Positions 13,242 to 18,641 of a DNA stretch of 64,000 bases are shown here, piece by piece. This stretch comes from Acinetobacter pseudolwoffii (GTDB taxonomy: Bacteria; Pseudomonadota; Gammaproteobacteria; Pseudomonadales; Moraxellaceae): the NCBI RefSeq assembly GCF_002803605.1, contig NZ_PHRG01000001.1, positions 694,819-758,818 on the forward strand. Direction: 5' to 3'. A program made the position numbers and the translations under genes. The notes beneath the pieces were generated by a model, which worked only from the letters and a program-made list of their open reading frames with translations, did no database searches and was not told where the DNA came from. Positions within the stretch are counted from its first letter, which is position 1. Every line of letters starts with the position of its first letter.

Positions 13242-15380
13242 ATGAAAACGATTCTATTGGTTCCCACTGGGGAAGGCGTAGGCTTAACTTCTGCATGTTT
13301 AGGCCTGATTTATGCACTGGAATGCCAAGGGGTTAAAGCTGGCTTTCTCAAACCTTTTGCTCAGGAATTGAATGAAGTCGAAGACCGTACTACGGCTTTG
13401 TATCGTCATATTTCTCAAAGTGAAACTGTTGAACCCATCCGTTATAGCAAAGTCTTGCAGCAGATTAATCTGGGTGAACAGGATGAACTGCTGGAAGAAG
13501 CGGTACGTCTGCATCGTCAAATTGCCAGACAGCATGACCTGATTATTGTCGAAGGTCTATTGCCAAATGCTCAGGACAGTTTTGCCGATGATCTGAATGC
13601 CTCGCTGGCGCAGGCTTTGGATGCCAAAGTGATTGTGGTCAGCAATGCCAATATCCAGCAGCCAGGTCAGACTGCCGATAAAGTTGAAAACCAGATTCGC
13701 AACTTTGGTGGCGCCAGTTCAACCCGCCTGTCTGGCATCCTGTTGATGCGAACCAAAGGTCTGCCTGAAGAATCTGCACAGATTCCTGTAACGCTTGATC
13801 CGGATTTACGTCTTGCAGAAGAAACCACACAATTTATTCGTGCCATCCAGCAAACCCATCCACATATTGGTTCAGAAAAGTTACCTGTAATTGGACTGGT
13901 GCCTTTCAGTAAAACTTTAAGTGTGCCGCGTATATCTGATCTGGCGGCACATATTCAGGCCTACTGGATTAATGAAGGCGAAGCGAAACAGCGCCGTGTC
14001 CAGCACAGCAGCCTGATTTCGGCCAATATTGAACATGAATTGCATAAATTTGTAGCGGGTGAATTGATCATCAGTGCATCTGACCGGATTGATGTGTTAT
14101 TGGCCAGCAGTCTGGCCAGCAGCAATGGTATTCCTTTGGCTGGCTTGGTGCTAACTGAACATCATCAACCAAATGATCACGTACTGGAATTTTGCCAGAC
14201 CGCCATCAAACAAGGTTTACCAATTTTACATACACCGCTTAGTACCTTTGAAACCGCACAAAAACTGGTAAATCTCAGCAATGAAATTCCAGTAGATGAT
14301 ACGGAACGTGCAGATCAGGTCACGCGTTTTGTTTCGAGTCACATCAATCCGGAATGGCTCGGTCAGATGTTGAATGGTTCTTATAAGCCACGTCTCTCGC
14401 CTTCAGCCTTCCGGCATGAACTGGTACAAAAATCGATTGCGGCGAAAAAACGTATTGTATTACCTGAAGGTGATGAACCACGTACGATACAAGCTGCAGC
14501 AATCTGTCAGTCGCGTGGCATTGCACAATGTATTTTATTGGCCAATCCCGAATCTGTTTTAGAAGTGGCAAAAGCTCGTGGTATCGAATTGCCTGAAGAT
14601 CTGGAAATTCTGGATCCGGATCTGATTCGTGACAACTATATCGACAAGATGGTCGAGCTACGTAAAGGCAAACTCAACGAACTGCAAGCGCGTGAACAGT
14701 TGCAAGACACTGTGGTGCTCGGCACCATGATGCTGGCGCTGGATCAGGTTGATGGTCTGGTCTCTGGCGCGGTACATACCACGGCCAATACCGTACGTCC
14801 TGCCTTTCAGCTGATCAAGACTGCACCGGATTATTCATTGGTTTCTTCTGTGTTCTTTATGCTGCTGCCAGATGAAGTCTATGTTTATGGCGACTGTGCG
14901 ATTAATCCTGATCCAGATGCAGAGCAGCTGGCCGAGATTGCGATTCAATCGGCAGATTCTGCCAAAGCCTTTGGCATTGACCCGCGGATTGCCATGATTT
15001 CTTACTCTACCGGAACTTCAGGTATGGGTGCCGATGTCGAGAAAGTGGCTGAAGCAACACGAATTGCCAAAGAACGTCGTCCTGACCTGCTAATTGATGG
15101 GCCATTACAATATGATGCTGCCTCGGTTGAAAGTGTTGGCCGTCAAAAAGCACCAGATTCACAAGTGGCCGGACGTGCCAATGTCTTTATTTTCCCGGAT
15201 TTAAATACGGGTAATACGACTTATAAAGCTGTGCAACGTGCTGCCAATGTAGTCAGTGTTGGGCCAATGCTGCAAGGCTTGAACAAACCGGTGAATGACC
15301 TGTCTCGTGGTGCTTTGGTCGATGATATTGTATTTACCATCGCCTTAACCGCGATTCAGGCAGAACAGCAGGCTCAATAA
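13242..15380 (+). CDS. pta: Phosphate acetyltransferase, long form
   Basis: This enzyme interconverts acetyl-CoA plus phosphate and acetyl phosphate plus CoA. The 712 residues match the long enterobacterial type. The N-terminal BioD-like P-loop domain opens with LLVPTGEGVGLTS, a DRTGG-type middle domain follows to about residue 370, and the catalytic PTA domain runs from about residue 385 (RIVLPEGDEPRT) to the end. SYSTGTSGMGADV and FPDLNTGNTTYK are signature stretches of the catalytic domain. It is the second gene of the ackA-pta pair and ends at a hairpin terminator. Confidence 0.96.
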   Translation: MKTILLVPTGEGVGLTSACLGLIYALECQGVKAGFLKPFAQELNEVEDRTTALYRHISQSETVEPIRYSKVLQQINLGEQDELLEEAVRLHRQIARQHDLIIVEGLLPNAQDSFADDLNASLAQALDAKVIVVSNANIQQPGQTADKVENQIRNFGGASSTRLSGILLMRTKGLPEESAQIPVTLDPDLRLAEETTQFIRAIQQTHPHIGSEKLPVIGLVPFSKTLSVPRISDLAAHIQAYWINEGEAKQRRVQHSSLISANIEHELHKFVAGELIISASDRIDVLLASSLASSNGIPLAGLVLTEHHQPNDHVLEFCQTAIKQGLPILHTPLSTFETAQKLVNLSNEIPVDDTERADQVTRFVSSHINPEWLGQMLNGSYKPRLSPSAFRHELVQKSIAAKKRIVLPEGDEPRTIQAAAICQSRGIAQCILLANPESVLEVAKARGIELPEDLEILDPDLIRDNYIDKMVELRKGKLNELQAREQLQDTVVLGTMMLALDQVDGLVSGAVHTTANTVRPAFQLIKTAPDYSLVSSVFFMLLPDEVYVYGDCAINPDPDAEQLAEIAIQSADSAKAFGIDPRIAMISYSTGTSGMGADVEKVAEATRIAKERRPDLLIDGPLQYDAASVESVGRQKAPDSQVAGRANVFIFPDLNTGNTTYKAVQRAANVVSVGPMLQGLNKPVNDLSRGALVDDIVFTIALTAIQAEQQAQ

Positions 15381-15398
15381 ATTTAATAGCTCCGCACT

Positions 15399-15435
15399 CA
15401 CCACCCTCTCGCAAGATGGGGTGGTTTTTTTAATC
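15399..15435 (+). terminator. Terminator of ackA-pta
   Basis: ACCACCC and GGGTGGT arms followed by T7, 18 bp after the pta stop. Confidence 0.85.
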
Positions 15436-15511
15436 ATTTTTGTTCTAAAGTCGGACATTCTATAATCTGTCGATTACGTTTCTAAAAATAAAAAATGCTC
15501 TCAAAGAGCAT

Positions 15512-16059
15512 CAAATCAGCACTGATCTTAAATGGAATCGCATCTACTTACACTTACTGAAAGTTGAAAATCTGCTCACATTTTTAGCGCTCACGCAAAT
15601 CGATGAAATGCGTTATATGACCGGCTTGAAATGGCATTTTACACTTGAAGATATGCAGGCACATATTCAGCGCTGTTTGGCTGATCCAACCCGTTATGAC
15701 TTTACAATTTGTTTAAACCATCCTGATGAAATGATCGGTAAACTTTGAATTCTAGAAATCAATCTTGTGCTCAACATGCTGAATTTTGTATTGCAATCTC
15801 AACAATCACTTGGACAGCTCAAGGCTATGGCAGTGAAGCGCTCAAGTTGGTCAAAGAGTTTTTCTTTAAGCCATTACAACTCAAAAGTTTAGGCTTGATA
15901 GTCTTTGGACATAATTTAGGTGGAAGTCGTGCCTAGGAAAAATATGGTTTTCAAACGCTAAAAATCATACAAAATGGTTTTGAATATGAAGGGAAATTTT
16001 CAGATAAAATCATTATACAGGCTCAAAATCCATTTCTGGCAGAATGCAAAACCAAATAA
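15512..16059 (+). pseudogene. Decayed GNAT-family N-acetyltransferase
   Basis: Remnants in two frames join into one GNAT-like protein. The first frame reads KVENLLTFLALTQIDEMRY and on to MIGKL before a TGA near 15747. The second, from about 15745, reads QHAEFCIAIS, WTAQGYGSEALKLVKEFFF (the acetyl-CoA binding motif AQGYGSEA) and VFGHNLGGSRA, hits a TAG at about 15935, and then resumes in frame with EKYGF and FEYEGKFS to TAA at 16057-16059. No usable start codon is seen at the N-terminus. At least one frameshift, one nonsense codon and a lost start make it non-functional. The boundaries, especially the 5' one, are approximate. Confidence 0.8.
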
Positions 16060-16082
16060 AAAAGAATCAACTACGCATAATA

Positions 16083-16110
16083 AATGCCAGTCTTTCGAAC
16101 TGGCATTTTC
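16083..16110. terminator. Hairpin after the acetyltransferase remnant
   Basis: AATGCCAGT pairs perfectly with ACTGGCATT around a 7-base loop, followed by T4. It is the surviving terminator of the decayed gene. Confidence 0.65.
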
Positions 16111-16188
16111 AACGATTACTAATAAAGTCTGTGACATAAAAAATTAAGCTGAGACAGCCCTGCTTTTCAGTCCACTGACTTTAATTTT

Positions 16189-16428
16189 TTATAAGGTGGT
16201 CCACTCTTTACGCACATCTTCTGCTGTTTTATTGAGCACCACGCTATCGTCTTTGATTTCGCTTACCCAACTCAAGGGAATCAGATGATGCTCATTATTT
16301 TCATCATCACTTCTTGTTAATTTAATTGAATCCTGACCTTCTAAATGGTCTACCTTCCCGACTTGAGTACCACATGAAGCAATGACTGAAGCATGTTCTT
16401 TAATATCACTTGCATTAAAATTGTTCAT
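16189..16428 (-). CDS. DUF2171 domain protein
   Basis: A 79-residue protein starting at ATG 16428. The pattern IKEHASVIASCGTQVGKVDH, then KLTRSDDE, HHLIPLSWV and a final RKEWTTL is that of DUF2171 proteins. These are small, cytoplasmic, PRC-barrel-like and often expressed under stress; no biochemical function is established. It has no operon partner: the acetyltransferase remnant lies downstream on the opposite strand and the microprotein gene lies 270 bp upstream. Confidence 0.8.
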   Translation of the reverse strand: MNNFNASDIKEHASVIASCGTQVGKVDHLEGQDSIKLTRSDDENNEHHLIPLSWVSEIKDDSVVLNKTAEDVRKEWTTL

Positions 16429-16611
16429 TCTACTTGCCTGTTTCTAGAAGTTGAGAGAAACAGTCTAAGCAATAAAAAATGCCACATGTGTAAGGGTTTT
16501 CAGGCTTTGAGTTTTTCTGGGTTAAAAATGTAAATGGTCAACATGGCTTGAGTAAGCTATAGGAGAGATGCTTTTTAAATTTGAGTTTTCAAATATTTTT
16601 ATAACTGGATT

Positions 16612-16657
16612 TGAAGATTTGAAGATGTGAAGATGTGAAGATGTGAAGATGTGAAGA
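16612..16657. repeat. Short tandem repeat, 8-bp unit
   Basis: TGAAGATG occurs four times exactly in a row (16620-16651), flanked by the imperfect units TGAAGATT and TGAAGAAA. It is non-coding and lies downstream of the microprotein gene. Such arrays change length by replication slippage. Confidence 0.85.
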
Positions 16658-16680
16658 AAGGTTAATTTTTTATGTCTTAA

Positions 16681-16716
16681 AATAAAAAAGAAGATAAAGC
16701 TTAGGCTTGATCTTCT
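16681..16716 (-). terminator. Terminator overlapping the 3' end of the microprotein gene
   Basis: On the minus strand AGAAGAT/ATCTTCT and AAGC/GCTT arms (one mismatch between them) close a 4-base loop and are followed by TTTTTATT. The hairpin includes the last codons and the stop of the 28-residue gene, a compact arrangement. Confidence 0.8.
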
Positions 16717-16787
16717 TTCTGACCGTACATCCAAGTTGCAGCGATATATACACAAAAACCACTTGCCATTAAAATACCTGTAACCAT
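16701..16787 (-). CDS. 28-residue putative membrane microprotein, Pho-regulated
   Basis: A short reading frame starts at ATG 16787 and ends with TAA at 16701-16703. It begins MVTGILMASG, continues with an uncharged stretch including FCVYIAATW, and ends with the polar tail GQKEDQA. One transmembrane helix is therefore likely. I do not recognise the family; CydX-like or KdpF-like subunits were considered but the residues do not match what I know of them. The case that it is a real gene rests on its signals. A GGGAG Shine-Dalgarno lies 9 bp before the ATG. A CATAAT -10 element (16816-16821) sits exactly 10 bp after a near-consensus Pho box (16831-16849). An intrinsic terminator overlaps the stop. 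It is probably induced by phosphate starvation; the function is unknown. Confidence 0.75.
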   Translation of the reverse strand: MVTGILMASGFCVYIAATWMYGQKEDQA

Positions 16788-16830
16788 TGTTAAGATCTCC
16801 CGTTTCAATAGCTGCATTATGTAAAAGTTT

Positions 16831-16849
16831 TATGACAGTTATATGACAA
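16831..16849 (-). promoter_or_regulatory. Pho box of the microprotein gene
   Basis: The minus strand reads TTGTCATATAACTGTCATA: half-sites TTGTCAT and CTGTCAT separated by ATAA, an 11-bp period. One base differs from the E. coli first half-site CTGTCAT. A CATAAT -10 hexamer begins 10 bp further on, the normal PhoB-activated geometry. Confidence 0.8.
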
Positions 16850-16934
16850 TCTGGTTTTTTATTAAATTTAAAATAATTAATAAAATTCAATCGCTTAATA
16901 CGGAATAAGCAAAATTATGCGTATTTTTTATCTG

Positions 16935-16972
16935 AAATATGACACTAAATATGACCGATTACTGTCATATTT
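16935..16972. promoter_or_regulatory. Three copies of AAATATGAC (two direct, one inverted)
   Basis: AAATATGAC occurs at 16935-16943 and 16947-16955, and its exact reverse complement at 16964-16972. The last two form a 9-bp perfect inverted repeat around an 8-base spacer. This is a probable regulator-binding array between fumarase and the divergent microprotein gene. The core GTCATA resembles half of a Pho box, but the 12-bp spacing is not standard. Confidence 0.6.
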
Positions 16973-17069
16973 GACCCGCTGAGCTGCTCAAGTCGTCCTT
17001 CAGATTGCTTAAACTATAAACTTTCGGCCAATGCTCGCCCAAAATGCCCACAACCCGATTCTTTTGTCT

Positions 17070-17075
17070 TATAAT
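17070..17075 (+). promoter_or_regulatory. Probable -10 element of the fumarase promoter
   Basis: A perfect TATAAT lies 40 bp upstream of the fumarase ATG. No good -35 hexamer is visible at normal spacing, so activation by a regulator is possible. Confidence 0.5.
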
Positions 17076-17114
17076 TTAGCCCGCTAGCTATCAGCCCGCT
17101 CAAGAGATATTTGT

Positions 17115-18641
17115 ATGACAACTATTATCAAGCAAGATGACTTGATCACATCGGTTAAAGATGCGCTTCAGTTCATTTCTTACTATCACCCACAAGACTT
17201 TATCCAAGCGATGAGCCGTGCGTATGATCGTGAAGAGAACAAAGCTGCTAAAGATGCGATCGCGCAAATCTTAATTAACTCACGCATGTGTGCAGAAGGC
17301 CACCGCCCAATCTGTCAAGATACCGGTATCGTCAACGTATTTGTTGAAGTGGGCATGGATGTTAAATTCGATTTAACCATGGGCCTGGATGATGCAATCA
17401 ATGAAGGCGTACGTCAGGGTTATTTAGAAAACTCCAACGTGCTTCGTGCATCAGTTCTGGCCGATCCTGCTTTTGGTCGTAAGAATACCAAAGACAACAC
17501 TCCTGCCGTGATTTACCACAAGCTTGTGCCTGGTAATAAAGTAGATATCACTGTAGCAGCCAAAGGTGGCGGTTCAGAAAATAAATCTAAACTCGCAATG
17601 TTGAACCCATCTGATTCAATCGTAGATTGGGTACTGAAAACTGTTCCAACGATGGGTGCAGGCTGGTGTCCACCAGGTATGCTAGGGATTGGGATCGGTG
17701 GTACTGCTGAAAAAGCCATGATGCTTGCCAAAGAAACATTGATGGAAGAGATCAACATGGACGAATTACTTCGTCGTGGTCCACAATCTAAACTTGAAGA
17801 ACTTCGTATCGAAATCTTCGAAAAAGTGAATGCTTTGGGTATTGGCGCACAAGGTCTTGGCGGTTTAACCACTGTTCTTGATATTAAAATCAAAGATTAT
17901 CCATGTCATGCTGCGGGTAAGCCAGTCGGTATGATCCCGAACTGTGCTGCGACTCGTCATGCACACTTCACACTTGATGGTACGGGTGTTGCCAACATCA
18001 TCGCACCAAAACTTGAAGACTATCCTGAAGTAACCTGGGATTCTTCAACATCTAAGCGTGTTGACCTAGACAACATCACACAAGAAGAAATGAATGCCTG
18101 GAAACCAGGTGATACATTGCTTCTGAACGGTACTATCTATACAGGTCGTGACGCTGCGCACAAACGTATGGTAGATATGCTGAATAACGGTGAAGAACTG
18201 CCTGTTGATCTGAAAGGCAAATTCATCTACTACGTTGGTCCGGTCGATCCAGTCGGTGATGAAGTTGTAGGCCCTGCTGGTCCAACAACGGCTACGCGTA
18301 TGGATAAATTCACACGTCAAGTCCTTGAAGCAACTGGCATGTTCGGCATGATCGGTAAAGCAGACCGTGGTCCTGCTGCCGTTGAAGCCATTAAAGACAA
18401 CCAGGCAACTTACCTGATGGCTGTCGGTGGTGCTGCTTACTTGGTATCGAAAGCGATCCGTGAAGCTGAAGTGGTGGCGTTTGCTGACTTGGGTATGGAA
18501 GCAATTTACAAGTTTGTCGTGAAAGATATGCCGGTTTCTGTCGCGGTTGATGTGAATGGTACTTCTATTCACGCGACTGCACCGAAAATCTGGCAAGCTA
18601 AAATTGGCAAGATTCCAGTCGTGGACGCTGCTGCAGGCTAA
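17115..18641 (+). CDS. fumA: Class I (iron-sulfur) fumarate hydratase
   Basis: This TCA-cycle enzyme hydrates fumarate to malate using an oxygen-sensitive 4Fe-4S cluster. The single chain of 508 residues contains both the alpha-type half (N-terminal) and the beta-type half (C-terminal). Cluster cysteines are expected in ICQDTG (near 67), GAGWCPPGM and IPNCAATRH. The C-terminal half shows YYVGPVDPVGDEVVGPAGPT and TGMFGMIGKADRG. The start is ATG 17115 with AAGAG upstream. It is monocistronic and closed by a strong terminator. The gene letter is uncertain (FumA/FumB type). Confidence 0.94.
   Translation: MTTIIKQDDLITSVKDALQFISYYHPQDFIQAMSRAYDREENKAAKDAIAQILINSRMCAEGHRPICQDTGIVNVFVEVGMDVKFDLTMGLDDAINEGVRQGYLENSNVLRASVLADPAFGRKNTKDNTPAVIYHKLVPGNKVDITVAAKGGGSENKSKLAMLNPSDSIVDWVLKTVPTMGAGWCPPGMLGIGIGGTAEKAMMLAKETLMEEINMDELLRRGPQSKLEELRIEIFEKVNALGIGAQGLGGLTTVLDIKIKDYPCHAAGKPVGMIPNCAATRHAHFTLDGTGVANIIAPKLEDYPEVTWDSSTSKRVDLDNITQEEMNAWKPGDTLLLNGTIYTGRDAAHKRMVDMLNNGEELPVDLKGKFIYYVGPVDPVGDEVVGPAGPTTATRMDKFTRQVLEATGMFGMIGKADRGPAAVEAIKDNQATYLMAVGGAAYLVSKAIREAEVVAFADLGMEAIYKFVVKDMPVSVAVDVNGTSIHATAPKIWQAKIGKIPVVDAAAG

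Follow-up and report, generated by a model that had tools for sequence, protein, structure and literature searches.

The 28-amino-acid microprotein of Acinetobacter pseudolwoffii (MVTGILMASGFCVYIAATWMYGQKEDQA) is encoded on the reverse strand by a 29-codon frame at 16701-16787, with the ATG at 16787-16785 and the stop codon TAA at 16703-16701. Positions refer to the window, the whole stretch of 64,000 nucleotides that was analysed. The frame is placed between a DUF2171 gene (16189-16428) and a divergent class I fumarase gene (17115-18641), and promoter, ORF and terminator together take up about 165 bp (Table 1). All of the signals listed in the earlier sequence-only reading, from the Pho box through CATAAT, GGGAG, ATG and TAA to the hairpin, were located at their described positions, and the 9 nt between the end of the box and CATAAT correspond to its statement that this element starts 10 bp further on. 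Across 27 distinct 28-nt leaders, the GAG core at -12 to -10 is mostly kept (G in 21/27, A in 22/27, G in 25/27), and an A occupies the predicted transcription start in 26. In all 66 regions with a matched box, an ATG stands at codon 1 or at the codon before it. An upstream in-frame ATG would give an alternative product of 38 amino acids; it overlaps the predicted -10 and start region. The microprotein gene is very probably real and lies below normal annotation size. About 25 bp past its terminator, at 16608-16657, there is an 8-bp tandem array (GATGTGAA) of 6.2 copies with 97% match.

Table 1. Features of the microprotein gene and its predicted signals in the window.
Feature	Position	Strand	Remarks
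Predicted PhoB box TTGTCATATAACTGTCATA, two direct half-sites	16831..16849	-	exact (14/14) to TGTCATA-N4-TGTCATA
Spacer AAACTTTTA, third half-site-like	16822..16830	-	conserved between box and -10
-10 element CATAAT	16816..16821	-	kept in 66 box-matching regions; the search pattern itself required ATAAT
Predicted transcription start, A	16809	-	7 nt past the -10
Shine-Dalgarno-like GGGAG	16797..16801	-	followed by 9 nt, then ATG
Microprotein ORF	16701..16787	-	28 aa; hydrophobic at about residues 2-20, polar tail at 23-28
Predicted intrinsic-terminator hairpin	16685..16720	-	CUAA tetraloop holds the stop (16703-16701); T-rich 3' arm and tail to about 16684

The box upstream of the gene consists of two TGTCATA half-sites of 7 bp each, set 11 bp apart. 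The exact TGTCATA-N4-TGTCATA arrangement occurs at two sites in the A. pseudolwoffii genome, one before the microprotein and the other (L146, C25:46254-46271) 169 bp upstream of an acyltransferase (PF01553) gene. Four further sites carry one mismatch and precede a PHO4-family permease gene (L147), phoB-phoR (L150), a DUF2057 gene and an unassigned 82-codon frame. With up to two mismatches, the pattern is unenriched against a reversed control in the same genome (34 vs 32), so only the best sites mean anything. Neither the site before the acyltransferase gene nor the phoB site shows an obvious CATAAT-like -10 at the microprotein spacing. Extended to box, spacer and CATAAT with up to two mismatches, the pattern matches 68 of 175 Acinetobacter genomes, once in each, and its reversed control matches none. 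All 68 matches lie at the microprotein, 67 of them within 39 bp of a profile hit and the last at the gapped copy of G045. The nine microprotein genomes outside the extended pattern (G034, G037, G038, G087, G103, G143, G150, G161, G171), when read directly, prove to have a less well matched box, except for G161 (L138), where a single half is intact. Among 70 distinct regions, 66 fit the box expression with a constant length of 34 nt to the end of the -10, and the distance from box to CATAAT is the same in all of them under a pattern that permitted four lengths; letter counts inside the box are inflated, as the expression fixed several letters. The other four regions comprise two with a different first box base, one single half-site and one second copy without a box.

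A comparable box precedes the gene of the PHO4-family Pit permease (near 201930 on C1 in A. pseudolwoffii, L147, together with L209-L238) in 30 of 31 genomes. It reads TGTCATATAATTGTCA(C/T)A, lies about 60-67 bp before the start and differs by one letter in G122. This conservation supports the box as an Acinetobacter PhoB site. Where the microprotein occurs, the Pit box is present in 16 of 16 genomes, and where it is missing, in 14 of 15; the box is thus independent of microprotein presence, and no link between the microprotein and Pit is seen. In 29 of the 30 box-bearing genomes the Pit box contains TATAAT, so that PhoB could activate or block the Pit promoter. For A. baumannii, a report describes that the consensus CTGTCATNNNNCTGTCAT located a Pho box before olsB and that PhoR regulates the OlsB-made lipids (PMC11828411). 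Because near-identical boxes precede phoBR and the Pit permease gene in the same genome, control of the microprotein gene by PhoB is strongly indicated.

The distribution of the microprotein was determined by peptide and profile searches. The peptide matched at E ≤ 0.1 in 54 of 119 Acinetobacter genomes. Two profiles, A1 built from 26 sequences and A2 from 20 sequences including distant forms, were run on 175 genomes of the genus, and the best E for the microprotein frame was 5e-20. A1 returned 119 genomes at E ≤ 0.5, with values from about 0.01 upwards read as chance, and A2 returned 77 at E ≤ 0.02, of which 76 lie below 1e-8. The remaining one, G102 (E 0.0135), was dropped as a chance match; L054, which sits in a long NuoL-like frame, and L056 were likewise removed from the ortholog matches. 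The microprotein is accordingly counted in 77 of the 175 genomes, 76 by profile at E < 1e-8 plus G045, where the box, the start and 12 codons run into an assembly gap. Missing from the other 98, it is not a core Pho function. In a collection with one genome per species, 85 stretches fit the peptide pattern; 47 were confirmed, all titled Acinetobacter, and 38 were unconfirmed. Named carriers include A. lwoffii, A. schindleri, A. indicus, A. variabilis, A. tandoii, A. bouvetii and A. portensis, and A. baumannii is absent from the 47 confirmed title-bearing loci. No match at E ≤ 0.005 was obtained in 292 other genomes of the order, a set that includes at least one gene-less Acinetobacter. Among 199 genomes drawn from the family (genus members included), the best non-genus match, G295 (E 0.00175), was read as chance, and its 2501-bp stretch (L134) holds no TGTCA-N6-TGTCA site. 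The search for plasmid carriage of the microprotein gave no match. By sequence comparison, the microprotein is restricted to Acinetobacter among the genomes searched. Two loci with more than one copy were observed. G073 has a second, box-less copy near a contig start (L051, contig C8, 931-1008) that lacks an ATG at the usual place and is perhaps a decayed duplicate. In G031 (L055), two tandem copies of the microprotein core flank an assembly gap next to glnA, and the first copy is preceded by a Pho box.

Of 54 loci checked, class I fumarase was found at 50, and the microprotein gene runs divergently from it in all of these; the remaining four are distant forms. Alternative settings are beside glnA (L053, L055) and beside a LysR-like gene (L077, L132, L133), these neighbours having been named by eye from translations. 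The box accompanies the gene at both, more weakly beside the LysR-like gene, and box and ORF therefore seem to move as one unit. The 1200 bp upstream of fumarase were also read in 30 genomes that gave no profile hit, and in 28 of them no box (at least 11 of 14 positions) is present. The remaining two are G045, with box and ORF start, and G036 (L191), which carries degenerate box-like remnants without an ORF, as if the gene had been lost and traces of the box left behind. A pta-like coding sequence, recognised by eye, directly adjoins in several gene-less genomes. On a quickly built fumarase tree of 99 rows (70 with the gene, 29 without), presence and absence amount to 5 changes vs 25.4 with shuffled labels, which points to old, mostly vertical inheritance with few losses of box and ORF together. 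OlsB-like acyltransferases (PF13444, strong hits) accompany the microprotein in 27 of its 77 genomes, vs 76 of the 98 genomes that lack it (Fisher 1.6e-8, ancestry ignored; the weak-only genomes G001, G034 and G172 scored as lacking OlsB). This skew hints at membrane remodelling and could be explained by shared ancestry alone; as evidence the negative association was rejected, since ancestry could give the same and both are present together in 27 genomes.

The claim of a real gene had been tied to conservation of its reading frame, and on synonymous and non-synonymous changes this frame is strongly retained while the 5' UTR and flanks vary. Across 63 distinct sequences, dN/dS in frame comes to 0.264 over codons 2-22 and to 0.162 when codons 10-22 are taken. 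Read in the two alternative forward frames, the ratio is 0.95 and 1.38, and in the reverse frames 1.25, 0.43 and 1.54; the single reverse value below 1 (0.43) counts against the favoured reading. The motif used to gather the first ortholog set prescribed several residues. The 63-sequence set adds the forms left out and returns the same ratio, and with them I15 and T18 lose their invariance. F11, W19, Y21 and G22 are invariant in all 55 distinct profile hits, collected with no motif filter, among which I15, A17 and T18 show one change each. Entropy by codon position is 0.67, 0.51 and 1.18, a gap matched by 16 of 20000 column shuffles. Frame-specific dN/dS, entropy and invariant residues together identify a protein gene, and on this comparative evidence the frame 16701-16787 is under protein-level selection.

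The predicted terminator hairpin has a minimum free energy of -16.1 kcal/mol (z -2.69), and 2 of 200 shuffles fold as well; it was found by folding and was not listed by a simple terminator scan. The earlier description of a terminator overlapping the stop was right on the overlap and understated it, for the stop codon lies in the apical loop and part of the tail KEDQA is encoded within the hairpin. The hairpin appears in the minimum-energy fold of 61 of 64 distinct ortholog 3' regions, being absent in L037, L052 and L053. Pairing is kept in 96.3% of cells over 25 rows, with three pairs changed on both sides and slid partners reaching at most 71.6%; these rows were picked for variety from the 64 and omit the hairpin-less L052 and L053 as well as L037, which has a rival fold, a choice that favours structure. 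Codons 25 and 26 (GAA GAT) are near-frozen throughout, as are the second and third positions of codon 24, which is expected if the stem holds them. Hairpin-less distant forms are also without the tail (L053 ends YGKS, L132 ends YGHK), so that residues 1-22 probably make up the core of the protein and tail conservation is owed partly to the terminator; KEDQA may be kept in part for the hairpin rather than for the protein.

The product had been described as having one likely transmembrane stretch, and prediction agrees: its best 19-residue Kyte-Doolittle mean is 1.61. In 61 distinct orthologs the corresponding value ranges from 1.49 to 2.59, and the first 8 residues are uncharged in all of them. 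Insertion of the microprotein into the membrane is likely. The invariant F, W, Y and G hint at a face used for docking, and such fixed aromatic and glycine residues would be easier to reconcile with a docking surface than with a bulk-hydrophobic pore.

The suggestion that the protein is undescribed agrees with the lack of a family match in Pfam, NCBIfam or Rfam and of a paper. NCBIfam gave no match, and neither did Rfam over 15300-17300 at E values up to 1. A Pfam search with 26 members returned only stray matches, to five families by one or two members each with a best E of 0.014 (TadE 0.014, Pkr1 0.03, MWFE 0.041, Ibs_toxin 0.088, DUF7394 0.25), which were read as chance, as was the single PHROGs match (E 0.23). 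No paper on the microprotein was found in the openly accessible literature searched, which is weak evidence of novelty.

Among known systems, the E. coli protein YoaI (34 amino acids) has its own PhoB box (TGTCATCAAACTGCCATT) and is reported as a PhoB target by ChIP-seq and RNA-seq (PMC10294691). It is further reported to connect PhoR-PhoB to EnvZ-OmpR, activating the latter (PMC11853020). The microprotein gene resembles it as a tiny membrane-protein gene with its own, here predicted, PhoB box; it differs in its neighbour genes, and the two peptides do not align at E ≤ 100, so no sequence homology to YoaI is seen. MgtS of E. coli (31 amino acids) is described as starvation-induced, thought to inhibit PitA and also to stabilise MgtA (PMC10710835). 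A parallel, drawn by description, lies in the Pho-boxed Pit permease of the microprotein's own genome. MgtS, however, responds to low magnesium via PhoPQ, and no microprotein-Pit link was found. DUF1127 small proteins are reported to bind PhoR and affect phosphate metabolism (PMC12501420); DUF1127 gave no match among the Pfam results for the 26 members.

We postulate that the locus is a monocistronic gene whose mRNA of about 125 nt encodes a 28-amino-acid single-pass inner-membrane microprotein. Under low phosphate, phosphorylated PhoB would bind the box, which stands where a -35 element would be, and would recruit RNA polymerase to the CATAAT -10. Translation would proceed from the GGGAG site, and the hairpin, made up of the final codons and the stop codon, would end the mRNA. 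The helix would insert into the inner membrane, where a conserved face of F11, Y/F14, I15, A16, A17, T18, W19, Y21 and G22 may dock on a membrane protein and tune it, in the way reported in E. coli for YoaI (EnvZ-OmpR) and MgtS (PitA). Since YoaI, MgtS and DUF1127 proteins are of similar size and act on membrane partners, we favour a PhoB-induced membrane modulator, and we hold the tuning of a partner, argued by analogy, with moderate confidence. Taken as a whole, a PhoB-induced single-pass inner-membrane microprotein that docks on and tunes a membrane partner is somewhat probable in our view. As for the partner, a sensor kinase, whether PhoR or a different one, is a tentative candidate, and the Pho-boxed Pit permease a slightly weaker one. 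It is conceivable, and also put forward tentatively, that what stands behind one of the best-matched predicted PhoB promoters of the Acinetobacter genomes is neither a transporter nor a phosphatase but a genus-specific connector of 24-29 amino acids that would switch a second membrane signalling or lipid-building system in phosphate starvation, with its last codons and stop serving as terminator.

A doubtful alternative is that the peptide is an accessory subunit of the CydX or KdpF kind, used only under phosphate limitation, which would stabilise an oxidase or transporter rather than regulate it. Single-helix subunits of about 28 amino acids exist in larger complexes, CydX (PF08173) among them resembling the microprotein in both respects, and two of the 26 members match the MWFE complex-I subunit (best E 0.041). 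These matches are at chance level, however, and within the window the locus has no genes of a respiratory or transport complex next to it, its conserved neighbour being fumarase. PF08173 is absent from the Pfam matches of the 26 members, and in the microprotein's own genome it matches another gene only, a separate CydX (L208, E 1.2e-10); the two peptides gave no alignment.

Slightly less likely still is a dual-function or purely RNA gene, in which the Pho-induced transcript of about 125 nt would act as a small RNA and the ORF would be incidental or secondary. Such a role draws on the very short predicted transcript, on the conserved hairpin at its 3' end with its compensatory pairs, and on the near-frozen codons 25 and 26. 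A CATC..AAA-like stretch is conserved in the leader as well, but the remainder of the leader varies in both length and letters. Against an RNA gene also stand the absence of any Rfam match in the region and, above all, the frame-specific selection on codons 2-22 (dN/dS 0.26). A purely RNA gene is nearly excluded, and a dual role remains a lesser rival.

We consider it improbable that the peptide is a membrane-active type I toxin under phosphate control, similar to TisB, Ibs or Hok, which would slow growth in starvation. Its size and hydrophobicity are within the range of such toxins, and one of the 26 members weakly matches PF13956 (Ibs_toxin), a match at chance level. Promoter-like sites on both strands of 16000-17500 number 3 vs 5.3 expected from shuffles, and Rfam yielded no antitoxin, a search that unknown antitoxins could escape. 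The fixed aromatic and glycine residues and the usual single copy per genome are likewise atypical of type I toxins. The last reading, that the box serves the fumarase gene from which the ORF, then a chance frame, diverges in most loci, has almost no likelihood and is already contradicted, as box, -10 and ORF are co-oriented and point away from fumA, the box travels with the gene elsewhere (L053, L055, L132), gene-loss genomes keep fumA without a box, and the ORF is under coding selection.

If the favoured reading of a PhoB-induced membrane microprotein is true, it adds a case to the few known PhoB-controlled small membrane proteins, none of which was described for Acinetobacter in the literature searched. 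As the unit of about 165 bp is common to dozens of species, deletion, tagging and partner-finding would be straightforward, and naturally gene-less species offer ready comparisons. Confirmation would mean that small size has kept a gene behind one of the best Pho boxes of these Acinetobacter genomes from being noticed.
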